This document shows, in pieces, positions 14,981 through 30,440 of a stretch of DNA of 51,726 nucleotides. Both the position numbers and the translations under genes were made by a program. Under the pieces are notes generated by a model. The model searched no databases, had not been told where the DNA came from, and was given only the letters and a program-made list of their open reading frames with translations. Every line of letters starts with the position of its first letter. The first letter of the stretch is position 1. The stretch comes from a virus, in IMG/VR virus record IMGVR_UViG_3300025000_000140, positions 1-51,726 of that record, one strand, 5' to 3'.

Positions 14981-15047
14981 TTCTCCGAAAAATGGGGATT
15001 GAAGTCGAAAGCGATCCCCTTTATTAACTAACTAATTAGAGGGAAAA

Positions 15048-15245: not shown

Positions 15246-15247
15246 AA

Positions 15248-16128: not shown

Positions 16129-16412
16129 TAAAACAATCAGCTTATGAAGCTACCCTAAGGGAATATCCAAGAGCGTTACGGCTTCAAGAAAAGTTAGACC
16201 ATGATGAAACGGAACGTGAACCAACAACAGCACATGAAATGTTTGATTCATATAATGATAAGACACAACATGAAGTAATAGTTAAGATACTAAATCACTT
16301 CTTTGGAGATTATACTTTAGAAGAAGTTCACTCATTAGTTATCTCACAGTTTCCAAAGAGTGATGCAAAGTTTATTGAAGGTAAAATAAAAAAAATAGTA
16401 GGAGTAGAATAA
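16110..16412 (+). CDS. Unknown early protein
   Basis: 100 aa, acidic, helical. ATG at 16110 has GAGGGAAAG upstream. Stop/start overlap with the 16412 gene is 1 nt (TAATG). Neighbourhood suggests a recombination/replication module. No motif recognised. Confidence 0.5.
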   Translation: MQVSEMIKQSAYEATLREYPRALRLQEKLDHDETEREPTTAHEMFDSYNDKTQHEVIVKILNHFFGDYTLEEVHSLVISQFPKSDAKFIEGKIKKIVGVE

Positions 16413-16936: not shown

Positions 16937-16945
16937 GAGTTCAGT

Positions 16946-17551
16946 ATGATAGTAGCAAATTCAAGTCCTAAAGCAGACCCGGTACCTGCGGGAACGTATG
17001 CTGCAAGGTGCTTTTCAATGGTTCATCTTGGAACAAGAACTGAAAATATTTTAGGTGTAGATAAGGAATTAAATAAGGTTAGAATTGGATGGGAATTGCC
17101 GACTGAATTAAAAGTATTTAAAGAAGAAAATGGCGAACAGCCTTATTCAGTATCTAAAGAGTTCACTTTATCAATGCACGAAAAAGCTAATCTAAGAAAA
17201 TTCTTAGAATCATGGAGAGGAAAAGGCTTTACTGATGATGAAGCTAAGGCACTTGATATTACGGCACTTCTTGGCAAGCCATGTATGCTTTCAGTAATAC
17301 ATAAAACAACCAAGCAAGGCAATACCTATGCTGAAATAAGCAGTGTTTCAGCTTTACCTAAGGGAATGACCTGCCCTGATCTGATTAATCCTATTACTGA
17401 ATTTACCTTTACTCCGTTTGATCAAGAAACATTTAATAAACTGCCTGATTGGTTAAAGGATAAGATTAAGTCTTCAAAAGAATACAGGGAGATAAGCGAA
17501 CCGGCTCATGTTGAAGATAACAGTAAAGACGAAGATGAGCCTCCTTTTTAA
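16946..17551 (+). CDS. Candidate single-stranded-DNA-binding protein
   Basis: 201 aa. The N-terminal 150 residues are beta-rich (OB-fold-like pattern) and the C-terminus is an acidic tail ending DEDEPPF. An acidic tail ending in Pro-Phe is the hallmark of SSB proteins, used to recruit partners. It sits directly after Gp157, its usual neighbour. No SSB family motif in the core was recognised, so the call rests on tail and context. A second SSB-like tail lies in another frame just after it (see findings). Confidence 0.55.
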   Translation: MIVANSSPKADPVPAGTYAARCFSMVHLGTRTENILGVDKELNKVRIGWELPTELKVFKEENGEQPYSVSKEFTLSMHEKANLRKFLESWRGKGFTDDEAKALDITALLGKPCMLSVIHKTTKQGNTYAEISSVSALPKGMTCPDLINPITEFTFTPFDQETFNKLPDWLKDKIKSSKEYREISEPAHVEDNSKDEDEPPF

Positions 17552-17674
17552 TGAAGCTATATGTCACAATCCCGAAGTGCCTGAACAGCCCGAACAGAAT
17601 GATGATCTTCCATTTTAATATTTAACGGAGTGACCTAACGGTAATCAGTTTCATTAAACAATTTAGGAAAAACA

Positions 17675-17935
17675 ATGAGAAAACCAAAACTACCAAAAAG
17701 CGTAAGGCTGGAATTAACTGATAAACAGGCTAAAGAACTACAGGGGTTGTTTGATTATGCAGCTGCGAGATACAAGGCAAACAAGATGGGAGTAATATTT
17801 GCACAGCCAAAAGATGATTTCCTTCGAGGCAAAATTCTTGACGTTGGATTTGTGGAGCATGGGTTCGCAAAAATCATAACAGAAACCATTTGTGTAGCGA
17901 GGGATGCAAAACAGGCAAGTGCTGGTATGAAATGA
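17675..17935 (+). CDS. Small unknown protein
   Basis: 86 aa, basic, with an N-terminal helix and an Ala/Gly-rich C-terminus. Start ATG has AGGAAAAAC upstream. No family recognised. Immediately downstream (17938-17969) is an attC-arm-like sequence. Confidence 0.5.
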   Translation: MRKPKLPKSVRLELTDKQAKELQGLFDYAAARYKANKMGVIFAQPKDDFLRGKILDVGFVEHGFAKIITETICVARDAKQASAGMK

Positions 17936-17937
17936 AA

Positions 17938-17969
17938 GAACAACTACTGTAGCGGTTTAAGCTGCTGCG
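17938..17969 (+). repeat. Isolated attC-like left arm
   Basis: AACTACTGTAGCGGTTTAAGCTGCTGCG resembles the left arms at 28139 and 28848 (ATTGCGGTTAAGCTGCTG). No clear partner arm was found within 200 bp. It may be the remnant of an attC-like element, placed just after a gene end as in the 27-30 kb array. Confidence 0.45.
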
Positions 17970-17994
17970 TGAATAATTGAAAGGAAAATACATA

Positions 17995-18153
17995 ATGACA
18001 AAACCAGAAAAAGAAATTATTAAAATATTAAAAAAACATTCTATACCAGGTGGACAATGTTGGAAGCCATTTTTAATGGAAGAAGATTACCAAAAAATTG
18101 CTACGGAAATTAGCAGTCAACTTGGTTTAACCCGCACCGGCATTGATAAATAA
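17995..18153 (+). CDS. 52-aa unknown protein
   Basis: ATG at 17995 with AAAGGAAAA upstream. Helical, charged, with a Pro/Gly/Cys/Trp central turn. No family recognised. It sits directly after the isolated attC-like arm. Confidence 0.45.
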   Translation: MTKPEKEIIKILKKHSIPGGQCWKPFLMEEDYQKIATEISSQLGLTRTGIDK

Positions 18154-18174
18154 ATTTAATTGGAAGTAAAAAAA

Positions 18175-18411
18175 ATGGAAGAACAGAAAAACAAAAACAG
18201 CGAGACACCGCAAGGTGTCGGCGTTGAAACCGAAGTTATAAATTTTTTGGCGGGAGATGTAGTAGATACATATTTTGGCTGGGCTGGGCATATTACTTTG
18301 ATTGATGAGAGCCTATTTAAATTCGGACAAGGTATCTACATAATTAGATTAAGCGATCAGCATTGCTTTTGTATCGGGCCTGGTGACGTAATTAGCCAAA
18401 AAGATTTGTAA
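18175..18411 (+). CDS. Small unknown protein
   Basis: 78 aa. ATG at 18175 with GGAAG upstream; the in-frame TTG at 18160 overlaps that site. Hydrophilic N-terminus, then a beta-rich part. Function unknown. The next 145 bp hold a low-complexity frame (18438 onward) that I do not count as a gene. Confidence 0.5.
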   Translation: MEEQKNKNSETPQGVGVETEVINFLAGDVVDTYFGWAGHITLIDESLFKFGQGIYIIRLSDQHCFCIGPGDVISQKDL

Positions 18412-18556
18412 CTATCAACTAACCCGTAAAGAAAATAATGGGCAATTTTTATCCATATTGGAAGAAAAACAAGCACAAAAATTCAAGTGTGACACAAAAA
18501 AAAGTATCACAAAAAAGTAAGGTTATCCATGTCATTAACCAGCAAAGAAGGATAAA

Positions 18557-18766
18557 ATGCACTATAAAGAAACGCCATTTGGTTTTGAGTATGGGGATGT
18601 AAAAATAAGTAGATTCTTTTCTGATGATAAAAAGGGGTGGGTGACTATTGGATTGGAAACTTCTAAGCACAATCGGGACAAGAATACAGAGATACAAATT
18701 TATGTTACGAAAACAGGGAAAATAAGAATACACGATAGACGTGGAGAATGGAAGAAGCCACTATAA
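18557..18766 (+). CDS. Small unknown beta-rich protein
   Basis: 69 aa with alternating strands (KKGWVTIGLETS, EIQIYVTKTGKIRIHD). This pattern is common in small phage proteins of unknown role. AGAAGG upstream; overlaps the 18748 gene by 19 nt. Confidence 0.5.
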   Translation: MHYKETPFGFEYGDVKISRFFSDDKKGWVTIGLETSKHNRDKNTEIQIYVTKTGKIRIHDRRGEWKKPL

Positions 18767-18987
18767 AATTCTTACTAATAACAGACAGACAAAAACCGCA
18801 CAAATTAGCTCATAAACTTTTTGGCGGTGAAATGAAAACCGTATCAGGCAATGAGATTGAAAGAATTATTCAGTCTGAAATTCCCGATTATGTTTTCTTC
18901 AATTTAAAATCAGACCATGAAGAAATGGGAAAGATAATAGAGGCACTTGGTAAAGTAACCGTTCATTCGTTTGGGTTTGGGATATGA
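18748..18987 (+). CDS. Small unknown protein
   Basis: 79 aa, alpha/beta pattern. ATG at 18748 lies inside the end of the previous gene after GTGGAG. Stop overlaps the start of the 18984 gene (ATGA). No family recognised. Confidence 0.5.
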   Translation: MEEATIKFLLITDRQKPHKLAHKLFGGEMKTVSGNEIERIIQSEIPDYVFFNLKSDHEEMGKIIEALGKVTVHSFGFGI

Positions 18988-19529
18988 AACAAGCTGATTT
19001 GATTAAATATTATTTAATACGGAATCTGTTAGACAAGCAAACCTATGTTATACCAAATTATTATTTGGGTAATTGGGAATGTGATGTGTTAGAATTATCA
19101 AAAAATAATTATACCACAGAGTATGAAATAAAAATCAGCAAGCAGGATTTTAAAAAAGATTTTGACAAACAAAGAGTTAGCCACAAAGTTAATGGTAAGT
19201 GGGACTGGGGCAATCCGGTTGTTTGCAAAAAGCACGATGAAATATTGACAGGGAAAAGGGCTAACAGGTTTTATTTTGTTACTCCGGCGGGATTGTTGAC
19301 AAAGGACGATGTCCCTGAATATGCCGGATTGATTGAGATAGGCGATATGTGGCACGATGTGAAAATTATCAAACATGCCAAATGGCTGCATAAAAACATA
19401 GCGGGTGATAAAATATATAAAGGTATGATGAGCAAGTTTTACCAACGATACGTTTACAACAACTATTTTCCAAAGTTTAGGGAATTTTTAACCGTTCTTA
19501 ACACGATAACAAAAACTAATGAAAAATGA
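18984..19529 (+). CDS. MmcB-like PD-(D/E)xK nuclease
   Basis: 181 aa. Asp34 (WECDVLELS) and Glu48-Ile-Lys50 (TEYEIKIS) with a nearby SKQDFKKDF helix give the PD-(D/E)xK nuclease core, arranged like MmcB DNA-repair family proteins. Probably acts on phage or host DNA during replication or recombination. Coupled to the preceding gene by ATGA overlap. Family assignment is by motif only. Confidence 0.6.
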   Translation: MKQADLIKYYLIRNLLDKQTYVIPNYYLGNWECDVLELSKNNYTTEYEIKISKQDFKKDFDKQRVSHKVNGKWDWGNPVVCKKHDEILTGKRANRFYFVTPAGLLTKDDVPEYAGLIEIGDMWHDVKIIKHAKWLHKNIAGDKIYKGMMSKFYQRYVYNNYFPKFREFLTVLNTITKTNEK

Positions 19530-19564
19530 TAATAAATTTTGTGAGAGAAATCTAAGGGGCAATA

Positions 19565-20248
19565 ATGGCTAAAGACCCGGCGTTCCTATTATACTCAAGT
19601 GATTTTTTAACTGGAATTATGTTTATGAGTGATGAGCAAGTAGGTAAATATATAAAACTCCTTTGCGCCCAACACCAAAAAGGTATGCTTGCAGAAGAAG
19701 ATATGTTAAACATATGTAAAACATATGATAAGAAAATCTTTGAAAAATTCAAGAAAACGCAGGATGGTTTGTATTATAATGAAAGGCTAAGTGTAGAGGT
19801 TGAAAGAAGAAAATCATATTCTGAATCAAGAAGAAATAACAGAAATAGTAAAAAAAGTAAAGAACATATGTCAAACATATCTTCCACATATGTTAAACAT
19901 ATGGAAACTGTAACTATAAATAAAGATATAAATATAGATGGAATTACTGATGAACAAATGCAAACACTATGGATAAAAACATTTGGCAAAAATCCATCTT
20001 ACCCTGAACGTGAGGAAACGGAAAAGTTAATTGAGAAATTTGGTTATGAAAAAGTGTATGCAACATACAGAGATGCTAAACTTAAAAACTTCAAATCACT
20101 CAGCACACTTATAAACAATTTAAATGAAAACGGTGATATAAAACCATTGGAGAAAACAAATGGAACAAGCAGTAGTAAATCGAGCAGAGGTATTGTTACA
20201 AAAGAGGAACTTGAATCTTCCTTCAAAGCCCTTTATGGTAAAACATGA
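19565..20248 (+). CDS. Replication-initiator-like protein
   Basis: 227 aa. The first 60 residues (LLYSSDFLTGIMFMSDEQVGKYIKLLCAQHQKG) match the DUF1376/YdaU type of N-terminal domain found in phage replication proteins. A Ser/Arg/Asn-rich linker follows, then a helical C-terminus. The coding sequence has repeated CATATG/ACATATG motifs at 19705-19905. Likely starts phage DNA replication with the following gene. Confidence 0.65.
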   Translation: MAKDPAFLLYSSDFLTGIMFMSDEQVGKYIKLLCAQHQKGMLAEEDMLNICKTYDKKIFEKFKKTQDGLYYNERLSVEVERRKSYSESRRNNRNSKKSKEHMSNISSTYVKHMETVTINKDINIDGITDEQMQTLWIKTFGKNPSYPEREETEKLIEKFGYEKVYATYRDAKLKNFKSLSTLINNLNENGDIKPLEKTNGTSSSKSSRGIVTKEELESSFKALYGKT

Positions 20249-20912
20249 GAAAATGCCTGCTATTATTCACGGCTCTGAATTAACAGAAGCATATAACAGA
20301 ACGGATTTAGAGGCTGCTTATGTTTTGTTCAAATGCAAAGAGTTGAAAGTCTTGAAAGATATTCAGCTTGAAGATCAAAGGATATTCGCTTTTTACATTG
20401 AATTTATTCACATGGGATGGACTAAGAAAATATTTGACCAAAGATTTGAAGCGGTAAAAAGGGCGAAGTTATACGGAACTGTTTTAGACTTCTCAACCTG
20501 GATGGAAAGCGAAATTACCTATAACGAATCAGATTTTGAGCTTGAAGTTGACCGAAGGATTAACTCTCTCATTCAAAAAGGCGAAAGATTAAGCCGGATG
20601 GATATTGAACTTACAGATGAGGAAAAAAAATACGTCCAAATGGCGGCGGCAAAAAAAATAGAATATGAATTAAAAGTTAAAAGGATTGAAATAATGGAAA
20701 AAGCAATCGAGAGTTTAAGAGAAAAATATCTTAAAACATTAAAGGGCAAAAAACTAAAGATAGCAGAAATGGATTTAAGCAAAAGAACAGCTATTACAGA
20801 CAGGTTATTTGACTTAGGAATTTTAGAAGGAACAAAAGACGGCGTAGAATATTCAGCAGCACTTTTCAACTTAGAAGATTTTGCCGATTTAATACCGGAA
20901 GAATTGCTATGA
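20160..20912 (+). CDS. Unknown replication-region protein
   Basis: 250 aa. ATG at 20160 has GGAG 8 bp upstream and lies 89 nt inside the previous gene, in another frame; if a later ATG (20238 or 20250) is used the overlap is minor. Helical and charged, coiled-coil at 160-215. Position between a replication initiator and a methyltransferase suggests a helicase-loader or primosome partner, but no motif shows it. Confidence 0.5.
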   Translation: MEQAVVNRAEVLLQKRNLNLPSKPFMVKHEKMPAIIHGSELTEAYNRTDLEAAYVLFKCKELKVLKDIQLEDQRIFAFYIEFIHMGWTKKIFDQRFEAVKRAKLYGTVLDFSTWMESEITYNESDFELEVDRRINSLIQKGERLSRMDIELTDEEKKYVQMAAAKKIEYELKVKRIEIMEKAIESLREKYLKTLKGKKLKIAEMDLSKRTAITDRLFDLGILEGTKDGVEYSAALFNLEDFADLIPEELL

Positions 20913-21556
20913 TATTTCTTAACTGTGATTGCATGATTGGAATGAAAGAATACCCTGATAAGCATTTCGATTTAGCTATTGTTGATCCGCCGTATGGGAT
21001 AGGTTATTCTGCTTTGGTTGGTAGCAAAAAAGAATCTGATGGATGGAAAAGGCGGGACAAGAAAAATTGGGATAGCAACGTGCCTGACAAAAACTATTTT
21101 GATGAATTATTCAGGGTTAGTAAAAATCAAATTATTTGGGGTGGAAACTATTTTAATTTATCACCTTCAAGGTGCTATTTAATATGGGACAAGGTTCAAA
21201 GGATAGACCAAGCAGACTGTGAATTGGCGTGGACGAGCCTTAATGGCTCTGCAAGAATATTTAGTTATGCGAGGGGAAACGAAAGCGGATTCGCTCCGAA
21301 ACTTAAAGGCAGTGCAAAAGATTTTGCCAACATTCATCCCACTCAAAAACCCATTGCGCTTTACAAATGGATTCTATCCAAATACGCAAAACCAAATGAC
21401 AAAATTTTAGATACACACGTTGGCAGCGCAAGTTCTTTAATTGCTTGCGAAGATATGGGTTTTGATTACGTGGGCTTTGAGTTAGACAAAGATTATTACG
21501 AATCAGCAACGAAAAGAATATTGCAATACCGTTCACAATTAAAATTAGCTATATGA
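20909..21556 (+). CDS. DNA adenine-N6 methyltransferase
   Basis: 215 aa. Catalytic DPPY at residues 26-29 precedes the SAM-binding segment DTHVGSASSLIA near the C-terminus, the order of beta-class N6-adenine methyltransferases. Full length for the class and no restriction partner nearby, so it is probably an orphan enzyme that protects phage DNA or affects regulation. Coupled to both neighbours by ATGA overlaps. Confidence 0.88.
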   Translation: MIFLNCDCMIGMKEYPDKHFDLAIVDPPYGIGYSALVGSKKESDGWKRRDKKNWDSNVPDKNYFDELFRVSKNQIIWGGNYFNLSPSRCYLIWDKVQRIDQADCELAWTSLNGSARIFSYARGNESGFAPKLKGSAKDFANIHPTQKPIALYKWILSKYAKPNDKILDTHVGSASSLIACEDMGFDYVGFELDKDYYESATKRILQYRSQLKLAI

Positions 21557-21738
21557 ACTTCTTTCTTACCGATATAGAAACCAGCATAGAAACCTTGCAA
21601 AGAATGATTAAAGGGAATTTAACTCAAAAAGAAAGTATCAAAATAGTTTTAGAAGAGCTATGGGTAAGGCATAATTATGAAACAAACAGAAATGAAAAAT
21701 CAACAACAAACAAAAAAAAAGTTAAGGAGACAAAGTGA
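21553..21738 (+). CDS. Small unknown protein
   Basis: 61 aa, helical, Glu/Thr/Lys-rich with a basic tail. Overlaps the methyltransferase (ATGA) and the next gene (GTGA). No family recognised. Confidence 0.5.
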   Translation: MNFFLTDIETSIETLQRMIKGNLTQKESIKIVLEELWVRHNYETNRNEKSTTNKKKVKETK

Positions 21739-22052
21739 ATTTTGAATATGTGAAAAGCTATTACAAAGTGCCAGCCGAACTTGGAAGAGAGATAATGCTC
21801 CGGGATAGAAAAGGAATTATTGTAGAAGATAGAGGGCACTACATAGGGGTTACTTTTGATGATGAAAATCCGGGAACTATAAATAATCTCCATCCTACTT
21901 TTGAAGTAAAATATTTGGGTATAGGGAAAATACGCAAGGTGAAAAAATCTACTGCCAGATACAAACGCTACCTTGAATATGGTGATAGCTTTGATTCATT
22001 TTTGGAATATTGCAAGTGGGATGGCATGAAAGAAAGATCATGGAATATTTAA
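21735..22052 (+). CDS. Small unknown beta protein with KGIIVED segment
   Basis: 105 aa. GTG start with AAGGAG upstream. Segment RKGIIVEDRGHYIGVTFDDENPG and HPTF...YLG looks like a small beta-barrel domain found in several phage proteins; it resembles part of the 8305-8544 product. Function unknown. Confidence 0.55.
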   Translation: MNFEYVKSYYKVPAELGREIMLRDRKGIIVEDRGHYIGVTFDDENPGTINNLHPTFEVKYLGIGKIRKVKKSTARYKRYLEYGDSFDSFLEYCKWDGMKERSWNI

Positions 22053-22089
22053 TCTAATTATGAATCAAAAAACATAAAAAGGAAATAAT

Positions 22090-22674
22090 ATGAAAAGCCA
22101 AAATATAAAAGAACTTAATAAGTGGTTAAATAATTTATTAAAAGAAGAAAGGCATATCAATAAAGACGACATTATACAGATACTGAATGATTTTGATTGG
22201 GAAGAACCGAAAATTGCGGGTAGGGAATATGATACTATCACCGCAATAATATTGGAAGGTGTCTTTATCACCTACACAGAAAAAGAATATGGATATACAA
22301 GAGGCGGATTACCACAAGAATGTGTAAAAAAAATGATGGAGATATTGACTAAACGAGGATATGAACCACAGATTATAACTTGGAATGCAAGTATGCAGAA
22401 AACGGCGGACATTGACTTCTTGGTTAAAAGAACGATGGAAGCCGGAACTTGCAATTTTACAGACGAGAGAGATACAGGAAGTAGCAGTAATTCAATTGTG
22501 GCTATTGCTTACGGGGCACAAGAATTAAAAGACCAGATATTGCCGGGAGATATGGGCGATTTGAATGCTTGTAAAAATATGTGGAAGAAATTACCAGAGC
22601 ATAGGAAAACCGAAGATGCAAAAAAAGCGATGGAACGTGCTGAAAATTTTAGAAACGAAAAAACAATTTTTTAA
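22090..22674 (+). CDS. Unknown protein
   Basis: 194 aa, mixed alpha/beta, with no motif recognised. Preceded by AAAAGGAAATAAT. Lies alone between two regulatory-type small genes. Confidence 0.5.
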   Translation: MKSQNIKELNKWLNNLLKEERHINKDDIIQILNDFDWEEPKIAGREYDTITAIILEGVFITYTEKEYGYTRGGLPQECVKKMMEILTKRGYEPQIITWNASMQKTADIDFLVKRTMEAGTCNFTDERDTGSSSNSIVAIAYGAQELKDQILPGDMGDLNACKNMWKKLPEHRKTEDAKKAMERAENFRNEKTIF

Positions 22675-22693
22675 ATAATTGGAGATAGGGAAA

Positions 22694-23098
22694 ATGAAAA
22701 CAGATACAAGAAACATGTTAATGGAGGAAGATTACCTATACAACGGATTAACCCGAAAAGAAATATCAACAAAATATAATCTTTGCGTTGGCAGTGTTAA
22801 TAACCTAATCCAGGGTTCAAGTATTAAGAGACAAGAAATAATCGCCGGTCTATCAAAGACCATGACCATGACAGAGATAGCCGGGGTATATGGATTAACG
22901 ATTAACAGGATAAGGAAGATAATCCAAAAATTTAACGGAGTGCCGGAGAAGAAAAAACTTCTTTTCTGTAAAAACGGTGACGGTAACAAGCTGTATCACG
23001 GGAATCTTTGCCATGAGTGCCATAAGGAATATCAAACGGATGGATATCGCAGGCGCAAAAATATAAAATTACAAAACTCATATAGGAGGGCAGTGTGA
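22694..23098 (+). CDS. HTH protein with C-terminal zinc knuckle
   Basis: 134 aa from ATG 22694. Two helix-turn-helix-like segments (LTRKEISTKYNLCVGSVNNLI and MTMTEIAGVYGLTINRIRKII), then Cys residues in CKNGD and CHECHKEY that could bind zinc. Probably a DNA-binding regulator or homing-like DNA-binding protein without a nuclease part. The stop overlaps the GTG of the next gene. Confidence 0.6.
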   Translation: MKTDTRNMLMEEDYLYNGLTRKEISTKYNLCVGSVNNLIQGSSIKRQEIIAGLSKTMTMTEIAGVYGLTINRIRKIIQKFNGVPEKKKLLFCKNGDGNKLYHGNLCHECHKEYQTDGYRRRKNIKLQNSYRRAV

Positions 23099-23328
23099 AC
23101 GATAAAGTAGAGCTAAAATTTGTAATAGATTTAGTCGGACATGATGAATCAACAATCAGGCAAATGTATAATGATTGGCTCGGTAACAAACCAGATCCGC
23201 AGATTGAAATCCTTCTAAACAAATTCGATGATTTCAACAATGAGGAAAATATCGTTGAGCCGTTTACAGAAGAATATTACAAAATGAAAAAATGGCTTGT
23301 TGAAAATTTAATTCAAGAAGGAAAATAA
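23095..23328 (+). CDS. Small acidic unknown protein
   Basis: 77 aa. GTG start after TAGGAGGGCA. Acidic and helical, with no motif recognised. Overlaps the upstream stop (GTGA). Confidence 0.5.
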   Translation: MNDKVELKFVIDLVGHDESTIRQMYNDWLGNKPDPQIEILLNKFDDFNNEENIVEPFTEEYYKMKKWLVENLIQEGK

Positions 23329-23329
23329 A

Positions 23330-23407
23330 ATGAAAAACAAACAATTAAACTTTAGGGGCAAAAAGCCTCAAATTACAAATCATAAAGGAGTAAGCCATGA
23401 TAAATAA
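23330..23407 (+). CDS. 25-aa basic peptide
   Basis: ATG at 23330 with AGAAGGAAA upstream; the stop overlaps the start of the 23397 gene. Very basic and low in complexity. May be a leader peptide rather than a functional protein. Confidence 0.3.
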   Translation: MKNKQLNFRGKKPQITNHKGVSHDK

Positions 23408-23624
23408 AAGTTCTCACGAGTTCGCTGATATTTCAAGCGAGGCATATCGCCAATATACCTTTCCAAGCGGGAATGTAGTAATAATTAAAAACCCTACTTA
23501 CTTAGCCGTAAGCGAAAATGGACACAGGGTATTTGATGCAAGCGGTATTAGTCACTATATACCATTGGGTTGGGAACACCTCGAATGGAAATCGAAGGAA
23601 GGTCAACCCAATTTTATCAGATAA
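23397..23624 (+). CDS. Small unknown protein
   Basis: 75 aa. ATG at 23397 with AAAGGAG upstream. Beta-rich, with HEFADISSEAYRQYTFPSGNVVIIKNP and HRVFDASGISHYIPLGW; this looks like a small conserved phage protein of unknown role. Its 3' third overlaps the acetyltransferase-like frame. Confidence 0.55.
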   Translation: MINKSSHEFADISSEAYRQYTFPSGNVVIIKNPTYLAVSENGHRVFDASGISHYIPLGWEHLEWKSKEGQPNFIR

Positions 23625-24144
23625 GTTTGAACCGCTTGTTACGCCAAAACTTTTGGTAAAGCCCATTACTCTTAAACTTGCAAATAAATTTGTAACGGAA
23701 CATCACAGACATCACGGAACTGTGGTTGGCTATAAGTTTGCAATCGGTTGTTATACTAACGATAATTTGCTTGGTATAGCAATAGTGGGCAGACCCATAA
23801 GTCGAAGATTAGATAATGGCTTGACAGCGGAAGTAACACGCTTATGCACAAATGGGACAAAAAATGTTGCCAGCAAACTCTACTCAGCTTGCTGGCGCAT
23901 TGCTAAGGAAATGGGTTATAAAAAAATAATAACATATATACTTGCAAGCGAAACGGGTATTAGTTTGAAAGCAAGCGGGTGGGAGTGTGAAGATGAAAAG
24001 TGCGGTGGGCTTGCCTGGAATAGCGGGAAAGGAATTGTGAGAACGGATATAGTTACTGATTTATTTGGAACTAAAAAAAAATATCCAAATGAGTATAAGA
24101 GACGATACATAAAACAATTATCAAGAGATTGCACAAAAATATAA
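23518..24144 (+). CDS. XF1762-like GNAT-type acetyltransferase
   Basis: Up to 208 aa. The conserved part begins near residue 45 (ITLKLANKFVTEHHRHHG...) and includes LGIAIVGRP, EVTRLCTNGTKN and ASKLYSACWRIAKEMGYKKIITYIL, the pattern of the XF1762 family, which has a GNAT-type acetyltransferase fold. Target unknown. The true start is uncertain because 107 nt overlap the previous gene; ATG 23518 or 23536, or a non-ATG start near 23600, are possible. Confidence 0.65.
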   Translation: MDTGYLMQAVLVTIYHWVGNTSNGNRRKVNPILSDKFEPLVTPKLLVKPITLKLANKFVTEHHRHHGTVVGYKFAIGCYTNDNLLGIAIVGRPISRRLDNGLTAEVTRLCTNGTKNVASKLYSACWRIAKEMGYKKIITYILASETGISLKASGWECEDEKCGGLAWNSGKGIVRTDIVTDLFGTKKKYPNEYKRRYIKQLSRDCTKI

Positions 24145-24166
24145 ATCATATAGGAGGGCAATTTAA

Positions 24167-24400
24167 ATGTCCTATGAAGATTTTGAAAAACAAGTATTAG
24201 ACATTCACGGTTTGAAAAGCGAACACCCGAAACTTAGGAAGAAAATAAAAGCAATCTGGGATTTGACACAAAAAGATAATGAAGCGCTGAAAAGAACGCT
24301 AAGAGTAATATATACGTGGGCAAGCTATGATGAGGGGCAAGCATTAGAAGACAGCGTGATTAAACTTTTAGAAAAAAATAAAGATAAATTTTCAACATAG
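24167..24400 (+). CDS. Small helical unknown protein
   Basis: 77 aa, charged and helical. ATG with TAGGAGGGCA upstream. No family recognised. Confidence 0.5.
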   Translation: MSYEDFEKQVLDIHGLKSEHPKLRKKIKAIWDLTQKDNEALKRTLRVIYTWASYDEGQALEDSVIKLLEKNKDKFST

Positions 24401-24413
24401 GAAGGAAAGTAAA

Positions 24414-24608
24414 ATGAAGATCACAAAGTATAAAAAGAAAACAACTATCAGTCTTGGTAATAGGAAAATCGTTTTAGAACAACAGAATGAGGATTGGAAG
24501 GTAACTTCTATTCACAGTAACGAAGTAGTTAAAGAGCTTATTGTTTCAGATGAATCCTTATCAGCATTATTAGAGGCTTATAAAACAGCGAAAGGAGAAG
24601 GAAAATGA
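24414..24608 (+). CDS. Small unknown protein
   Basis: 64 aa, basic beta-rich N-terminus and helical C-terminus. GGAAGGAAA upstream. Stop overlaps the next start (ATGA). Confidence 0.5.
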   Translation: MKITKYKKKTTISLGNRKIVLEQQNEDWKVTSIHSNEVVKELIVSDESLSALLEAYKTAKGEGK

Positions 24609-24823
24609 ACCAAAAACCAGAATTTTTTACAATTATGAACTTAACCCAATGTCACTTAGAATTAAAATCTGCCGAATATAAGGGGTGGTTAAAACTTCCG
24701 CGCTACCAAGACCCTCAAAGTGATGAATATTATGCAGACATACAGGCAATTACAGAGGACTTGGATTTTCTGATTTCGGTTATTAGATCGGTAAAGGCAA
24801 TTAAAGTGAAAGCGGGTGAATAA
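24605..24823 (+). CDS. Small unknown protein
   Basis: 72 aa, mostly helical. Coupled to the preceding gene by ATGA. No motif recognised. Confidence 0.45.
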   Translation: MNQKPEFFTIMNLTQCHLELKSAEYKGWLKLPRYQDPQSDEYYADIQAITEDLDFLISVIRSVKAIKVKAGE

Positions 24824-24824
24824 A

Positions 24825-25049
24825 ATGAAAATAAAAATAAACAGATTTGAGATTGCCCTGTGCCGTTGGACTTTACCCTTTTCATATATCGGGTTTAAAC
24901 CAAGACCAAAGGAATATGGCTTTGAAGTTATGATTTCAAATCTATTCCAATTTTGGATAGCTATTGATTTCAACAAATATGATAAAAATGGTTTTTTGAT
25001 ATTTCCAAACAACGCAATTAAAAGCCCTCTAAGCGATTCAGGGGTATAA
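24825..25049 (+). CDS. Small unknown beta-rich protein
   Basis: 74 aa from ATG 24825 (an in-frame GTG at 24816 is possible). Aromatic and basic: RFEIALCRWTLPFSYIGFKPRPKEYGFEV. The pattern is typical of small conserved phage proteins, role unknown. Confidence 0.5.
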   Translation: MKIKINRFEIALCRWTLPFSYIGFKPRPKEYGFEVMISNLFQFWIAIDFNKYDKNGFLIFPNNAIKSPLSDSGV

Positions 25050-25133
25050 AGTATCAAGCAAGTATAGTAAATTGAACCTTGCACGGGTTCTGTTCGTTTG
25101 TGATAGAAATTACAACTACTTTGAAAGGGAAAA

Positions 25134-25376
25134 ATGAAATCTTTAGAAAATCTTAACATAAGTTTAAATGAATTAGCAGTTTCTTACTCACAGCTACCAG
25201 ACCATTCAGACGATTTAACCGATTTATCACAGGAAATTAAAATATTTACACGTGATGCCGGTGGTGGAATATATTTTGTAATTAAAACTGAACGCTGGGC
25301 ATTTGACAGCATAGAGGATTTTGTTGATTTATTAAAGGATTTTCAAAACAGACTGAATGTGGTGAAAAATGATTAA
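25134..25376 (+). CDS. Small acidic unknown protein
   Basis: 80 aa, acidic. GAAAGGG upstream. Overlaps the NinG-like gene by 8 nt, so it is cotranslated with it. Confidence 0.45.
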   Translation: MKSLENLNISLNELAVSYSQLPDHSDDLTDLSQEIKIFTRDAGGGIYFVIKTERWAFDSIEDFVDLLKDFQNRLNVVKND

Positions 25377-25776
25377 GAGTAAACCGAAACTTGGGAATCC
25401 GAAATTTAAAAGCATTCCTCAACTAAAAACTCAGTTAGATAAAGAGTTTAGCATATATATCCGCAATAGAGACAAGAAGTGTTTTACGTGTGATGCTGAA
25501 TTAGAATTTAAGAAATTACAGGCAGGGCACTTTGTTTCAAGAAAGCATACGGCGACAAGGTTTGATGAAGATAATACCCACGCTCAATGTATTTCGTGCA
25601 ATATCTTCAAAAAAGGCAACTATCCTGAATACTCTGCAAGGCTTATTAAGAAATATGGTGACGGAATTATAGAGGATTTAGTAATCAGGGGCAAACAACC
25701 GTTCAAGCTAACAAGGGAGTTTCTAAACGAACAAATTTCATATTACAAAAAGGCTAACCATGAAATCGAAGCCTGA
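25369..25776 (+). CDS. ninG: NinG/Rap-like recombination nuclease
   Basis: 135 aa. Pattern of the NinG (Rap) family: YIRNRDKKCFTC (Cys38, Cys41), LQAGHFVSRKHTATRFDEDNTHAQC and CISCN (Cys74, Cys77), then YGDGI. The His/Asn core and two Cys pairs form a zinc-bound HNH-like nuclease. Lambda Rap resolves branched recombination intermediates such as D-loops and Holliday junctions. Slightly shorter than lambda NinG (about 200 aa) but with all the metal ligands. Confidence 0.78.
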   Translation: MIKSKPKLGNPKFKSIPQLKTQLDKEFSIYIRNRDKKCFTCDAELEFKKLQAGHFVSRKHTATRFDEDNTHAQCISCNIFKKGNYPEYSARLIKKYGDGIIEDLVIRGKQPFKLTREFLNEQISYYKKANHEIEA

Positions 25777-25909
25777 AAAATCTGAAAAGATTACTGAAAA
25801 GATCACCGGCAAAATTGATGAAACTTGCCAGAAGTGTATTAAGACATGCAAGCAAATAAATGTTAAGGTTATGTATTGCCCTGATTTTAAGAAATTATTA
25901 ACAAAATAA
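25760..25909 (+). CDS. 49-aa zinc-binding protein
   Basis: ATG at 25760 overlaps the end of the NinG-like gene by 17 nt. The product is Lys/Glu-rich then has CQKCIKTCKQI and a further Cys (MYCPDF), four Cys that can bind one zinc. Small zinc proteins next to ninG are common. Function not known. Confidence 0.5.
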   Translation: MKSKPEKSEKITEKITGKIDETCQKCIKTCKQINVKVMYCPDFKKLLTK

Positions 25910-25924
25910 ACTTTAGGAGAAAAA

Positions 25925-26185
25925 ATGATACAGTTACGGGAAGATAACTTTACAAGTAAGTTCTTAATTGAATCTATTTGGTTTTTTAATGAACACGGCG
26001 ATACGATGATTGCCGTTAATTACAATCTTGATAAGAACAATGAAAAATTATATTACATAACAGAAGATCATGGTGACCATTCAGAGAATTGGGTTATTAA
26101 GGAAAGAGCTGGCAAAGAGATTGAAAGACACAACACAAAATTTATTGCGAGTATAATCTGGAGCGATAGGTTAAATCAAAATTAA
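25925..26185 (+). CDS. Small unknown protein
   Basis: 86 aa with alternating strands and many Asn, Glu and Trp residues. TAGGAGAAAA upstream. No family recognised. Confidence 0.5.
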   Translation: MIQLREDNFTSKFLIESIWFFNEHGDTMIAVNYNLDKNNEKLYYITEDHGDHSENWVIKERAGKEIERHNTKFIASIIWSDRLNQN

Positions 26186-26202
26186 AAGAAAGTGAGTTAT
26201 AA

Positions 26203-26313
26203 ATGGAAGAAAAGAATAAAGAAATTGAAATAGGCGAAAACCTAATGGCAGTATTAATATGCTTAATTATAATAATTGGAGTTGTGAGCGTAGTATTTAT
26301 CATTTCTCCCTAA
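26203..26313 (+). CDS. 36-aa membrane peptide
   Basis: Acidic N-terminus (EEKNKEIEIGEN) then a 22-residue hydrophobic span (AVLICLIIIIGVVSVVFII). ATG at 26203 has AGAAAGTGAG upstream. Likely a small inner-membrane protein; no family. Confidence 0.45.
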   Translation: MEEKNKEIEIGENLMAVLICLIIIIGVVSVVFIISP

Positions 26314-26342
26314 ATAACAAATCCACAAACAAAGGATAAATA

Positions 26343-26570
26343 ATGGAAATTACGATTGACCTTACCGGACTTACTTTATATCAGAGGCAGGCAATTCTTA
26401 AAATATATGAGCACAAAATTAAATATTTTATAGATATGATTGAATTTTATGAAGAAATAAAGAAAACAGACAGATACAATGCACTAAGATTAACGGCAGA
26501 GAAATTTAACATTTCAAGGGATGCAGTAAGAGGATATTTATATCCTTCAAAAAAAAGGCGCGGGATTTAG
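26343..26570 (+). CDS. HTH-like small protein
   Basis: 75 aa. C-terminal part RLTAEKFNISRDAVRGYLYPSKKRR resembles a helix-turn-helix with a basic end. Possible late-gene regulator; assigned by motif only. Confidence 0.5.
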   Translation: MEITIDLTGLTLYQRQAILKIYEHKIKYFIDMIEFYEEIKKTDRYNALRLTAEKFNISRDAVRGYLYPSKKRRGI

Positions 26571-26646
26571 ACAAAAAGTAAATCAGCTATTGACTATCAA
26601 TATAAATATACTTATGTTTGTATTAAACAAAATCAGGGAGTTGTCA

Positions 26647-26928
26647 ATGAGTGAAAAAACAAGTTATAAACCCCTAACAAAAAAAATAGCCAAAGATATA
26701 GCATTAACTTCTTTCGACTATGTTACGGACTGTTTGTTAGGAGTGTCTGATTCGGAGTATAATTTAGGAACAGATGTAAGCGAGTTTGAGACAAACTTTG
26801 AGGAAGATTTAGAAGAAAAGGGAATAAACCCAACGGCAGGCAAGATTAAACTTATTATGAAATATTTTGAAATTGAAAGAGCGAAATTAAAAAAAGTTAT
26901 TAACAAACCGAGAGTTAGACATGGCTAA
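26647..26928 (+). CDS. Small acidic unknown protein
   Basis: 93 aa from ATG 26647, chosen for AGGGAG upstream; the frame is open 57 bp further but with no ribosome site. Acidic middle (FETNFEEDLEEKG). Overlaps the next gene by 8 nt. No family. Confidence 0.5.
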   Translation: MSEKTSYKPLTKKIAKDIALTSFDYVTDCLLGVSDSEYNLGTDVSEFETNFEEDLEEKGINPTAGKIKLIMKYFEIERAKLKKVINKPRVRHG

Positions 26929-27073
26929 AAACGTCAACACCGCAACGGTATATATCCGAGATAAAGATTTAGAGAAGTGGAAAGAGATTGTTAATAAAAG
27001 TGATTTTGTAAGCTGGTGCTTGAATAAGAAGTTACCGGAGTATAAGAAGAAACAATCTTTGAGGGAGAAATGA
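26921..27073 (+). CDS. 50-aa ribbon-helix-helix-like protein
   Basis: ATG at 26921 overlaps the preceding gene, and the stop overlaps the next start (ATGA). Pattern TATVYIRDKDLEKWKEIV followed by SDFVSWCL resembles a ribbon-helix-helix DNA-binding protein (one strand, two helices). Would bind DNA as a dimer. Not proven. Confidence 0.5.
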   Translation: MAKNVNTATVYIRDKDLEKWKEIVNKSDFVSWCLNKKLPEYKKKQSLREK

Positions 27074-27408
27074 CACAACAGGAAATAATCATAATAAAAC
27101 TTGATGAACTCAGGTTGCAGCTAAAGGAAGAAAATAGACCAAGTGCCACAAAGATATGCCAAGAAGCTATTGACTACCTTAGCAGTCAACCGCAGGATAA
27201 AATTGCGGACGGGTGGAAAGATGCGAAGAAAGACCCTCCCGAATTATCAACAGCTATGGATAAAATGCTAAAAGAAATTGAGGAATATTTTGACGCACCA
27301 AACTATAAGAATAACGTTGTTAATTATAAATCATTTTATGATGGCGCATACCATTACTTAAAGACATTAGAAAATATTTTAATTATGAAAAGCAAGTTGT
27401 CAAACTAA
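27070..27408 (+). CDS. Unknown protein before first attC-like element
   Basis: 112 aa, helical; contains LSSQPQDKIADGWKDAKKDPPE. The KIA segment is similar to LEPQVMQKIAE in the 28202 and 28910 products. Its TAA stop lies in the left box (CTAAC) of the first attC-like element, the pattern of integron cassettes. Function unknown. Confidence 0.5.
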   Translation: MTQQEIIIIKLDELRLQLKEENRPSATKICQEAIDYLSSQPQDKIADGWKDAKKDPPELSTAMDKMLKEIEEYFDAPNYKNNVVNYKSFYDGAYHYLKTLENILIMKSKLSN

Positions 27409-27530
27409 CAGACAAAGCTAAGCCGCAAGCGGCATAAAATATAAATGATGAATGAAAAATTTAATTAACATAATTACAAAACATAAAATTAACAGCCAGC
27501 CCAAGCTTGTCGGCTTGAGCGGTAGTTAGC
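27405..27530. repeat. attC-like element 1
   Basis: Left arm: CTAAC (27405-27409) ... GCTAAGCCG (27417-27425). Right arm: CGGCTTGAGC (27511-27520) ... GTTAG (27525-27529). Arms pair, with one extra G in the right arm. The centre contains TTAATTAACATAATTACAAAA, almost shared with element 2. Length and layout match integron attC sites. Confidence 0.65.
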
Positions 27531-27547
27531 TTTTGAGGAGCGGGCAA

Positions 27548-27769
27548 TTGGATATTAAGAAATTATATGTAATACAAGATGATAAGAAAAAGCTATGGAG
27601 AGACACAGCATCCATAGATGAATCAACTTGCATAAGACGATTTGTGAAGGAGTGGCTATCAGTTTGCCATAGTTTGGATATTTATGACGCAAAACAAGTT
27701 TGGAGAATATTTACGAAAAATGGTTGGGAAATTCTTGAGCTAAATATTGAAGCGACTGAAGAAGCATAA
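27548..27769 (+). CDS. Small unknown protein in cassette-like unit
   Basis: 73 aa from TTG 27548, preceded by GAGGAG seven bases upstream. Starts 18 bp after the right box of element 1 and its stop is inside GCATAAC of element 2. Helical, with VWRIFTKNGWEILELN. No family recognised. Confidence 0.5.
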   Translation: MDIKKLYVIQDDKKKLWRDTASIDESTCIRRFVKEWLSVCHSLDIYDAKQVWRIFTKNGWEILELNIEATEEA

Positions 27770-27886
27770 CATTTATTGCGGTTAAGCTGCCCATAACGGA
27801 AAGAGAATTTTGAGAAACTTAATTAACATAATTTACAAACAAGCCCGAACTAATCTCGCAGTCTTGTTGAGTTGCGAGTTATAAAT
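27764..27886. repeat. attC-like element 2
   Basis: Left box GCATAAC (27764-27770), left arm TTGCGGTTAA (27776-27785). Right arm TTGAGTTGCGA (27867-27877) and box GTTATAA from 27879. The arms pair over 10 bp with G-U pairs and one extra G. The central spacer TTAATTAACATAATTTACAAAC matches element 1 closely. Confidence 0.65.
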
Positions 27887-27911
27887 TTTTGGGCGACATG
27901 GGAGAAAAGTA

Positions 27912-28127
27912 ATGGCAAACTTAATAACAGTTCCAAATTTTGTATTTCAGCAACAATCAGATGATGGCGCTGGTGAACAGCCTATTTGGGTGCAATATTA
28001 TAACGGCACTATCTCTCTTGAGCAAGATGATAATACCGTAAACATCCTCCCCGAAACAATGGACAAACTATTTAAGGAAATCAAAAAACATTTACCAGAG
28101 GCGGAGCATTGGTTGAAGAAACGGTAA
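27912..28127 (+). CDS. Small unknown protein in cassette-like unit
   Basis: 71 aa from ATG 27912 with GGGAGAAAA upstream. Beta N-terminus (VPNFVFQQQ, PIWVQYYNG) and a helical acidic end. The stop is 12 bp before the next attC-like box. No family. Confidence 0.5.
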   Translation: MANLITVPNFVFQQQSDDGAGEQPIWVQYYNGTISLEQDDNTVNILPETMDKLFKEIKKHLPEAEHWLKKR

Positions 28128-28138
28128 GCCCAAAAAGA

Positions 28139-28335
28139 TTTATAACATCATTGCGGTTAAGCTGCTGCGAAAGAAATAACAAAACTTAAAGGATGTAGAA
28201 AATGAATTTAGCAAAAAAATTATTAGATCAACACAAACAAAGAATTAAGTTTGACTATAGTGGTGAACTACCGGAATGGGCAATAACTATATGTAAAGAA
28301 AACCTCAGCAGTCTGCTTGAACCGCAAGTTATGCA
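28139..28335. repeat. attC-like element 3 (right arm inside a coding region)
   Basis: Left arm TTATAAC...TTGCGGTTAAGCTGC (28140-28164). The matching right arm is GCTTGAACCGCAAGTTATGC (28315-28334), inside the 28202-28486 gene: it pairs with the left arm and carries one extra G (TTGAACC vs GGTTAA). The box GTTATGC is at 28328-28334. Total length near 195 bp, longer than most attC sites. The same right arm occurs in element 5. Confidence 0.5.
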
Positions 28336-28486
28336 GAAAATTGCGGAAGTTGAAATAAACACACTTAAAAATTTGATGTATTACGAAACCATCCCTCTTG
28401 AAGAAAAAGAAAAATTAATAAACATCTTTGAGAAATTTGGGATAAAATTTACAGAAGAAGAAAAACAAATAATGTTTAATGTTTAG
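28202..28486 (+). CDS. Unknown protein spanning attC-like arm
   Basis: 94 aa. AAAGGATG leader and ATG 28202. LEPQVMQKIAE near residues 39-49 is encoded by a 45-bp stretch that is nearly identical in 28910-29224 (2 mismatches). The rest of the two proteins differs, so they look like chimeras joined at this point. Translation might also start at ATG 28331, right at the box GTTATGC. Confidence 0.5.
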   Translation: MNLAKKLLDQHKQRIKFDYSGELPEWAITICKENLSSLLEPQVMQKIAEVEINTLKNLMYYETIPLEEKEKLINIFEKFGIKFTEEEKQIMFNV

Positions 28487-28496
28487 CAATTTTTCT

Positions 28497-28623
28497 GCAT
28501 AACGCCTTTGCCGATAAGCTGCTTGCGGATAAAATAGAAAAATTAGGATGAAAAAATTAACTAAATATTACAAACAAAAATAGTCGAGACTGTTAGCAAG
28601 TCAGCTTGATTGGCTTGTTATAC
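28497..28623. repeat. attC-like element 4
   Basis: Left box GCATAAC (28497-28503), arm GCCGATAAGCTGC (28510-28522). Right arm GTCAGCTTGATTGGC (28600-28614), box GTTATAC (28617-28623). The arms pair as GCCGAT-AAGCTG with CAGCTTGATTGGC, leaving one extra G. 127 bp long. Confidence 0.68.
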
Positions 28624-28652
28624 GGATTTTGGCGGACATAGGAAAAACAAAA

Positions 28653-28853
28653 ATGAAAACACTTTATATTGAATTTGACGACCCCAAAACTGGAGAAAGA
28701 ATAGCAGGAGAAAAAGAAGTTGATAACGAAATAATTAACGAACAAATAATTTTAGAGATTGCTGAATTTGCACAAGAAAACGGAATTTGTGGAAGCTACG
28801 CAGCAGAACATTGTTTTTATAAATTTAAGGATGCGAGCCAAAATTCCGCATAA
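28653..28853 (+). CDS. Small unknown protein in cassette-like unit
   Basis: 66 aa from ATG 28653, chosen for TAGGAAAA upstream. N-terminus beta-rich (TLYIEFDDPKTGERIAGEKEV), C-terminus helical with Cys and His. Stop TAA lies in GCATAAC of element 5. No family recognised. Confidence 0.5.
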   Translation: MKTLYIEFDDPKTGERIAGEKEVDNEIINEQIILEIAEFAQENGICGSYAAEHCFYKFKDASQNSA

Positions 28854-29047
28854 CATTTATTGCGGTTAAGCTGCTGGCGACATTTACAAATAATTTAATG
28901 GAGTAAGAAATGGATAGAACAGAAATTTTAATAATAGTGAATGAATATTTATTACTTGATGTAATAAGTGGAGGGGTCACAAGCAATAAAGAACTGGTTA
29001 ATAAAATGGTAGATGAGTTAGCCAGTCAGCTTGAACCGCAAGTTATG
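28848..29047. repeat. attC-like element 5 (right arm inside a coding region)
   Basis: Left box GCATAAC (28848-28854), arm TTGCGGTTAAGCTGC (28860-28874), nearly identical to elements 2 and 3. The right arm CAGCTTGAACCGCAAGTTATGC (29028-29049) lies in the 28910-29224 gene, again with one extra G. Box GTTATGC at 29043-29049. Confidence 0.5.
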
Positions 29048-29224
29048 CAGAAAATTGCGGAAGATGAAAAAAAACTATTAGATATGTTATTCGCATCAAA
29101 AATAGCAGAGATACAAGCACACATAATTTATGGTGAACCATTAGAACAAAGAATGGGTAAAGTTAAGTTAGCTGAAAAGTTGGATGATTTACATAAAAAA
29201 CTTAAAAGCAATTTTTCGGCATAA
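28910..29224 (+). CDS. Unknown protein spanning attC-like arm
   Basis: 104 aa; ATG 28910 with GGAGTAAGAA upstream. Residues near 39-49 (LEPQVMQKIAE) match the 28202 product; the rest differs. Acidic and helical. Its stop TAA is within GCATAAC of element 6. An alternative start is ATG 29045 at the attC-like box. Confidence 0.5.
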   Translation: MDRTEILIIVNEYLLLDVISGGVTSNKELVNKMVDELASQLEPQVMQKIAEDEKKLLDMLFASKIAEIQAHIIYGEPLEQRMGKVKLAEKLDDLHKKLKSNFSA

Positions 29225-29404
29225 CGGCTATGTGGCTAAGGCGCAGCCCCAACAGGGATGTAGCAAGACCACAGATGATAAAAATTAGAAAATAATTTAA
29301 ACAATAGAACAACTTTGAACAAGACAGTAGAACAAAGTAAACAAACTAAAGAACAGCACAAAACCGGTGGAGTGTACGCTGTCGCCTTGAGCCACTTGTT
29401 AGGC
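29219..29404. repeat. attC-like element 6
   Basis: Left box GCATAAC (29219-29225), arm GTGGCTAAGGCG (29231-29242). Right arm CGCCTTGAGCCAC (29383-29395) and box GTTAGGC (29398-29404), an exact GTTRRRY match. The arms pair over 12 bp with one extra G in the right arm. This is the best-formed element; 186 bp with an AT-rich centre. Confidence 0.75.
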
Positions 29405-29428
29405 TACGTTTAGAATTAAGGCACAATT

Positions 29429-30418
29429 ATGAAAATTACAAAACATCTTAAAGTTCCTACTGGAGATATTTTAGTAGTACAAGGTGAAAAAGGTTATTTA
29501 GAAATGCTTTCTCTTGGAGATTATGGTAAAAATATAAACATTAAATGTGATGCAATGGGACTTACAAGAGATATTGAGAAAGTGCAACATACTAACCTTT
29601 TACCTTTAACCGAAAAATGGGTGATAACAATTTCTACGCAATATGGATGTTCGATGGGTTGCAGATTTTGTGATGTTCCAAAAGTTGGTTCTGGTAAAAA
29701 TGCAACATATAACGATTTAATAAAGCAAGTATTGACTGGAATAAAATTACATCCCGAAATTAAAACGACAAAAAGATTAAATATTCACTTTGCTCGAATG
29801 GGCGAACCTACTTGGAATCCCAATGTTTTAGATGCTACAAAATGGCTTAAAACACATATTGATCCAGAATACAAAATACATCCAGTTGTTTCTACGATGA
29901 TGCCAAAACACAATGAATGGCTTAAAACATTTATCCATACTTGGATGCGAATTAAAAATAGATTATTGCAAGGTGAAGCTGGTCTTCAATTAAGTATAAA
30001 TTCCACAAATGAATATGAACGCAATATAATGTTTAATAATAATTCTCTTTCTTTAGATGAAATCGCCAAAATATTAGAAGGAATAATCCCCAATGGAAGA
30101 AAGATAACATTGAACTTTGCGATTGCCAATTATGAAATTGATCCAAGTATTTTATTAAAGTATTTCGATCCAGATGATTACATAATAAAATTAACACCAA
30201 TGCACAAAACCGAAACTGCACTTAAAAATAATATCGAAACTATTGGAGACTATACTGCTTTCTATCCTTATAAGAGATACGAAGAAAATCTTAAGAAGGC
30301 TGGTTATGATGTATTGGTTTTTATTGCTTCTGCTGAAGAAGATTTAGGACGAATAACTTGTGGTAACGCAATTTTATCAGGAACTAAACCACTGATAAGT
30401 TACCAAGAAGTAGCCTAA
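29429..30418 (+). CDS. Radical SAM enzyme, RlmN/Cfr-like
   Basis: 329 aa. Cys74-x3-Cys78-x2-Cys81 (YGCSMGCRFCDVP) binds the 4Fe-4S cluster. A GEP-type motif follows (FARMGEPTWN), and a C-terminal Cys311 (GRITCGNAIL) stands where RlmN/Cfr enzymes carry the Cys that is methylated during catalysis. These enzymes methylate adenines in 23S rRNA or tRNA. It is shorter than RlmN (about 380 aa) and lacks a clear N-terminal helix-hairpin-helix part, so the substrate is uncertain. It sits alone between box GTTAGGC (29398) and GCCTAAC (30413), exactly like a gene cassette. Confidence 0.72.
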   Translation: MKITKHLKVPTGDILVVQGEKGYLEMLSLGDYGKNINIKCDAMGLTRDIEKVQHTNLLPLTEKWVITISTQYGCSMGCRFCDVPKVGSGKNATYNDLIKQVLTGIKLHPEIKTTKRLNIHFARMGEPTWNPNVLDATKWLKTHIDPEYKIHPVVSTMMPKHNEWLKTFIHTWMRIKNRLLQGEAGLQLSINSTNEYERNIMFNNNSLSLDEIAKILEGIIPNGRKITLNFAIANYEIDPSILLKYFDPDDYIIKLTPMHKTETALKNNIETIGDYTAFYPYKRYEENLKKAGYDVLVFIASAEEDLGRITCGNAILSGTKPLISYQEVA

Positions 30419-30440
30419 CTACTGTTTAACCTGCACACCA
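30413..30440 (+). repeat. attC-like left arm 7
   Basis: GCCTAAC at 30413-30419 is a perfect RYYYAAC box and contains the stop of the radical SAM gene. It is followed by TACTGTTTAACCTGC, similar to the left arms of other elements. No right arm was found before the 30465 gene, so the element is probably truncated. Confidence 0.5.

Follow-up and report, generated by a model that had tools for sequence, protein, structure and literature searches.

Antiparallel attC sites in a phage cassette array that ends at an RlmN-related radical SAM gene

Results

An attC array in a temperate-phage contig

The window analysed here, 51,726 bp, is the entire IMG/VR virus record IMGVR_UViG_3300025000_000140. It encodes a terminase large subunit (4583-5902, minus strand), a head protein/protease (50801-51574, minus strand), a tyrosine integrase of the Xer/phage type (11774-12835, plus strand) and an HTH repressor-like protein (13264-13686, minus strand), and by these four genes it reads as a temperate phage. 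No IntI-family integrase is present in the window, where the sole tyrosine recombinase scored 57.6 bits against TIGR02249 (cut-off 265), nor is the combination of an intI gene and attI that makes up a complete integron. Searches with the metallophosphatase gene, one cassette ORF and a 22-bp attC word returned no relatives of this phage. Elsewhere the window encodes a Mom-like DNA modification protein (23518-24144; XF1762 family, NF045478, 184 bits); a Mom-like gene also lies near the methyltransferases of Polaribacter phage P12002L, for which an integrase-less attC array (CALIN) has been published. A DNA methyltransferase gene (20909-21556) is homologous to the cassette-borne methyltransferases of loci L175 and L197 and of Tetrasphaera phage TJE1, and has no adjoining attC in the window.

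Four clear and two weaker attC sites, with about six cassettes, lie between 27.4 and 29.4 kb. They were located with a simple detector of our own that requires R boxes, paired L arms and an extrahelical base, and that superseded earlier scans by arm complementarity alone, which were too weak. The sites read on the minus strand and the ORFs on the plus strand. An ORF at 27070-27408 has its stop codon within the AACTAAC box of the first attC-like site (27403-27531; AGCTAAC TACCGC TCAAGCCGAC ... CGGCTTAGC ... GTTAGTT), one of the weaker ones (score 4.6 in the first detector). Then follow an ORF of 78 residues (27533-27769) that stops in a GCATAAC box, a degenerate second site (27764-27884) recognised by eye, which needs G-T pairs and falls below the detector threshold, an ORF of 71 residues (27912-28127), the third site (28140-28334, score 10.0), an ORF of 94 residues (28202-28486) that starts within the attC loop, the fourth site (28497-28623, score 9.5), an ORF of 74 residues (28629-28853, stop in a GCATAAC box), the fifth site (28848-29048, score 13.0) and an ORF of 104 residues (28910-29224, stop in a GCATAAC box). 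The last site (29219-29404, 186 bp, score 11.5, both extrahelical bases) is the attC of the putative radical SAM cassette and precedes the RlmN-like radical SAM gene of PHROG 24834 (29429-30418, 329 residues), which exceeds all other ORFs of the array in size, as originally predicted.

The four best detector matches in the window (scores 9.5-13.0) all fall within 1.3 kb; shuffled windows gave 0.2 matches per window at scores of at least 9.5 and none at 11. Applied to a class 1 integron (L142) as a control, the detector found three attC sites, all parallel to the genes. The ORFs at 28202-28486 and 28910-29224 have the peptide LEPQVMQKIAE in common, encoded by an attC arm, and in these two ORFs the recombination site also serves as coding sequence.

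On the minus strand the site at 29219-29404 consists of R'' (GCCTAAC, 29404-29398), L'' (GCTCAAGGCGAC), L' (CGCCTTAGC) and R' (GTTATGC, 29225-29219). This is the box arrangement of an attC, the L arms being complementary and R' deviating from GTTRRRY at one position, and the extrahelical bases are confined to L'' (GCTCAAGGCGAC versus CGCCTTAGC), as in attC sites.

The boxes that frame the radical SAM gene

According to the original prediction, the radical SAM gene is framed by attC boxes. Both boxes are where they were said to be and are exact inverted copies: GTTAGGC at 29398-29404 lies 24 bp upstream of the ATG (29429), and GCCTAAC at 30413-30419, complementary in every base to the R'' box at 29398, includes the TAA stop. 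Bare 7-mers alone are no evidence, occurring at chance level (3 matches to the box in the window versus 3.45 expected; 123 to GTTRRRY versus 112 expected). The upstream box is real because it ends the structured 186-bp site, so on that side the frame is a true attC. The downstream box is a lone one; an L'/R' attC half was sought after it and none was found.

Stop codons lie inside a TAAC box in five of the seven array ORFs versus 5/77 other ORFs of the window (Fisher p = 1.5e-4), and inside a stricter box in 4/7 versus 0/77. Lone terminal boxes after the last gene recur at the ends of other phage arrays. Given this enrichment and recurrence, we take the box at 30413-30419 (G|TTAGGC on the minus strand), which is unlikely to be there by chance, as the far boundary of a cassette. 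Beyond 30419 the minus strand reads GGTTAAACAGTAGTTAGGC, which may be attI-like; beside the terminal GTTAGGC, GGTTAAACAGTA (30419-30430) resembles the attI1 core (CTAAAACAAAGTTAGGC).

An RlmN-related enzyme family

The radical SAM protein is a full-length member of PHROG 24834 (residues 1-328 aligned to 1-334 of 336, E 1.2e-123). Against the RlmN model TIGR00048, which has a cut-off of 290, it scored 43.5 bits, and against Cfr models, with cut-offs of 468-550, about 40 bits. The nearest solved structures by sequence, in profile matches of ~85 residues, are RlmN (E 5e-9) and Cfr (E 2e-8). The CxxxCxxC motif is present (C74, C78 and C81), and these cysteines, the GEP motif and C311 are invariant or nearly so in the family. 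C311, within ITCGNA, is invariant and stands at the expected place of Escherichia coli RlmN C355, in a region aligned to RlmN by motif. Seven residues before the cluster, where RlmN has C118 and Cfr has C105, stands an invariant threonine, T67 (61/61 rows); all ten RlmN sequences of our tree have the second catalytic cysteine. The two-cysteine RlmN mechanism is not to be assumed for this family. A chromosomal RlmN-like family (L102-L141; Elusimicrobia, Deltaproteobacteria, Thermoplasmata and others) has no second catalytic cysteine either.

In the tree, which included ten RlmN and left Cfr out, RlmN forms a clade with 100/100 support and the radical SAM family falls outside it. From these comparisons the enzyme appears to be RlmN-like, but neither RlmN nor Cfr. 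The phylogeny proposed as a check of RlmN membership speaks against it, and the low RlmN and Cfr scores together with T67 undercut the suggestion of an RlmN/Cfr-like enzyme that alters translation or antibiotic response; our analysis gave no supporting sign of ribosomal modification or a drug response. That this RlmN-related phage family modifies a nucleic acid is our guess from sequence.

Sixty viral homologues (49-80% identity) are spread over contigs that vary widely in composition, and bacterial genomes contain close homologues as well as a chromosomal branch at about 33% identity. In 1.2 Mb around 139 homologue loci there was one weak attC-like match of standard spacing (L040, score 8.6, about the level of shuffled DNA). 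A further match (score 11.4) beside the homologue at L034 was rejected for its non-standard spacing and lack of consensus-type boxes. The gene family as a whole consists of widespread phage genes not associated with attC. The original prediction had named homologues without adjacent boxes as evidence against exchange, and this is largely what the family presents, though not the copy in the window.

These homologues bring in the alternative of a radical SAM gene that is resident in the phage and happens to lie beside the last attC, with the array ending at 29404 and the box at 30413 being there by chance. A family found at 139 other loci without adjoining attC, a bare 7-mer at chance level and the lack of an attC half beyond 30419 are all as this account would have them. 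It accommodates less readily a stop codon placed in a box as in the other array genes (5/7 versus 5/77), a box exactly complementary to the R'' box at 29398, the recurrence of lone terminal boxes at other array ends and an ATG 24 bp past the attC, like those of other cassettes, and we consider a resident gene unlikely.

Genes antiparallel to their attC sites

The extrahelical bases of integron attC sites are found in L'', on the gene side. Read in this canonical way, every attC of the window is on the minus strand and every gene on the plus strand. All four scorable sites (4/4) are antiparallel to their genes, unlike canonical parallel cassettes; in bacterial cassettes, antisense genes are known in a minority. 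This opposite polarity had been missed in the original prediction.

We scored polarity in two samples of IMG/VR: 70 loci collected with a pattern for the left half of attC, and 81 stretches collected with an independent pattern for the right half. Both patterns bias the samples toward TCAAGC-type sites. Our scoring was a simple symmetric test of our own that considers Shine-Dalgarno-led ORFs with a start or stop at the site; it was used in place of longest-ORF calling, which gave wrong strands even for the class 1 control. Sites were counted at a threshold of 8.5 and with standard spacing only. The first sample contained 71 antiparallel versus 0 parallel sites (37 versus 0 loci) and the second 64 versus 3 (32 versus 2 loci), giving 135 antiparallel sites among 138 scorable ones. 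The two parallel loci (L325 and L328) are pieces of one isolate contig, the array of which has a true integron integrase. Sites beside integrase genes in bacterial integrons were parallel in nine cases, with one site counted twice (L247 and L257), and antiparallel in none. Phage and bacterial polarity differ with Fisher p = 3e-12 by sites and 1e-7 by loci; sites of related contigs are non-independent, and the p-value by loci is the fairer one, yet itself generous. The bacterial control is small and rests on loci adjacent to integrases, because a scan of 369 bacterial genomes with the left-half pattern gave eight places, few of which could be scored, and a single antiparallel call at a lowered threshold of 8.0.

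Genes for phage portal and tail proteins, primase and DnaB occur on the contigs with antiparallel cassettes. Some of the antiparallel genes themselves cannot be mistaken, namely DNA methylases (L175/L197), an SSB (L212) and the radical SAM gene of the window. IntI scored above the cut-off in 3/38 viral records. Isolate phages gave no BLAST matches to the attC sites. The Pseudoalteromonas isolate phage H101/PH101 has one site antiparallel to its annotated genes; in phage TJE1 the cassettes are parallel to attC, so the antiparallel rule is not universal. In the work of Qi et al., 2023 (PMC9892861), attC sites of PH101 and TJE1 recombined with IntI1, and the PH101 site concerned may be another than its antiparallel one.

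Two further viral records are of note. One contig (L345; G417, 15001-29764 of the record) encodes an integron integrase (428 bits) directly downstream of an antiparallel cassette and in the same direction. The other is a 57-kb phage record (that of L199; loci L348-L350) in which several antiparallel cassettes follow in succession; its attC sites are of an unusual spacing class (8,12), the same as in the window.

The contrast with bacterial integrons bears on the possibility that the array was captured from a bacterial chromosomal integron and is in no way specific to phages. CALINs are already known from phages (Qi et al., 2023; PMC9892861), and TJE1 carries ordinary parallel cassettes, as such a capture would predict. 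Nevertheless, bacterial cassettes were parallel in 9/9 cases and phage cassettes antiparallel in 135/138, and capture in either orientation leaves the polarity of a gene to its own attC unflipped, which makes a simple capture quite unlikely.

Boundaries and gain or loss of cassettes

The comparison of shared blocks covered 240 sites at 97 viral loci. Blocks of homology common to different phages mostly begin at the box beside the stop codon of the upstream gene and mostly end seven bases into the next stop-codon box; a few end at the 3' side. These boundaries identify the mobile unit as an attC plus the gene downstream of it. In attC polarity, this unit is the canonical cassette, cut at G|TTRRRY, and its gene is antisense. 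From the unit seen in shared blocks of other phage arrays we infer that the complete radical SAM cassette spans 29225-30418 (1194 bp, minus strand in attC polarity). This interval has the one attC per gene and the G|TTRRRY boundaries of a canonical cassette, the far boundary being the lone box. The radical SAM cassette would be the first in attC order, the usual entry point of new cassettes.

A cassette of ~353 bp is present in L288 and L342 and missing from L326, with flanks that are 99.6-100% identical; in the comparison of L326 with L342 the crossover lies at the opposite end of the site, an exception to the pattern above. A 381-bp unit is present in L179 and L180 and missing from L205, an event that could equally be homologous recombination over 51 identical bases. 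The evidence of presence and absence comes from the arrays of other phages, by which the radical SAM copy in the window is presumably mobile too. Its proposed role as exchangeable cargo is therefore plausible, the array being real and single cassettes coming and going elsewhere; the same does not extend to an effect on translation or antibiotic response.

These blocks also weigh on whether the hairpins are recombination sites at all, rather than regulatory elements of the phage (terminators or leader hairpins) that resemble attC. The sites precede genes within operons as 5' leaders do, and most of the records lack an integrase (IntI above the cut-off in only the 3/38 noted above). Regulatory hairpins would hardly conserve extrahelical bases and G|TTRRRY boxes as integrons do, or have block boundaries at the boxes and presence or absence of whole cassettes, and phage attC sites recombine with IntI1 (Qi et al., 2023; PMC9892861). 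We consider this explanation very unlikely.

Discussion

It is hardly credible that detector faults or ORF calling on the wrong strand produced the polarity signal: the ORF calls do depend on a Shine-Dalgarno heuristic, and simply calling the longest ORFs went wrong on the class 1 control, but the test is symmetric, the controls and TJE1 score parallel, and the antiparallel genes include such unmistakable ones as DNA methylases, SSB and the radical SAM gene.

We think it probable that the window is a temperate-phage contig with a CALIN of antiparallel cassettes, probably moved in trans, in which the radical SAM gene forms the terminal cassette. In such an array each gene would sit just downstream of its own attC, with its stop codon in the next box, and in attC polarity each cassette would run box, gene, R''-L''-L'-G|TTRRRY, with the gene antisense. 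An integrase supplied by the host or by a co-infecting integron probably moves these cassettes, and the folded strand on which it acts would here be the coding strand. The predicted folding of the site at 29219-29404 (plus strand, -20.1 kcal/mol, z -2.14, R boxes paired; minus strand, -17.4 kcal/mol, z -1.30) agrees with the coding strand as substrate, by a modest difference. At a bacterial attI, such a cassette would have its gene in reverse orientation to the Pc promoter; in the phage, the inserted cassette would join a co-directional transcription unit.

Two ideas might account for the polarity. With genes co-directional with the fork, it may place the folding strand on the lagging-strand template; excision is higher when the folding strand is the lagging-strand template (PMC5371416). 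Alternatively, an antiparallel cassette may be favoured for being silent behind a bacterial Pc promoter. A wider proposal is that phages have a cassette pool of their own, of inverted polarity, with the coding strand recombinogenic and genes silent at a bacterial attI, so that phage and bacterial pools would be largely separate while served by the same kind of integrase. We consider this proposal about as likely as not.

Phage attC sites were known before; a near-universal inversion of polarity in sampled viral contigs, or any rule of attC-versus-gene polarity, was not found in the open-licence literature and may be described elsewhere. The opposite gene direction in dozens of viral contigs suggests a pool of exchangeable cassettes that belongs to phages. 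If true, polarity would separate phage from bacterial cassettes in any metagenome, direct gene exchange between phages and integrons would become testable, and selection would be hinted at, for example for a folding strand on the lagging-strand template with genes co-directional with replication (PMC5371416). The known cargo would gain a family of enzymes related to RlmN in which the second catalytic cysteine is missing.

The window resembles the phage CALINs of Qi et al., 2023 (PMC9892861) in combining attC sites and small ORFs without an integron integrase. The ORFs of those CALINs are often DNA methyltransferases and their attC sites are functional with IntI1. ORF directions are compared with one another in that study and divergent attC directions are noted in one phage; a rule of attC-versus-gene polarity is absent from the sections consulted. 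The window differs from what is described there in genes that run antiparallel to attC and in a unit made up of attC and the gene downstream. It has in common with bacterial integron arrays the R''-L''-L'-R' order, two extrahelical bases, the stop codon at the box and short tandem cassettes, and differs from them in its reversed gene-to-attC polarity and in having no integrase and, in place of a recognised attI, a putative attI-like sequence. The enzyme shares with RlmN and Cfr (class A radical SAM methylases) the CxxxCxxC motif, the (M)GEP motif and, by motif, a putative counterpart of the C-terminal cysteine of CG(N/Q), and differs from them in a threonine for the second catalytic cysteine, a C-terminal half without a significant match and a separate clade. 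Within PHROG 24834, of which it is a full-length member, the sole difference is its attC setting.
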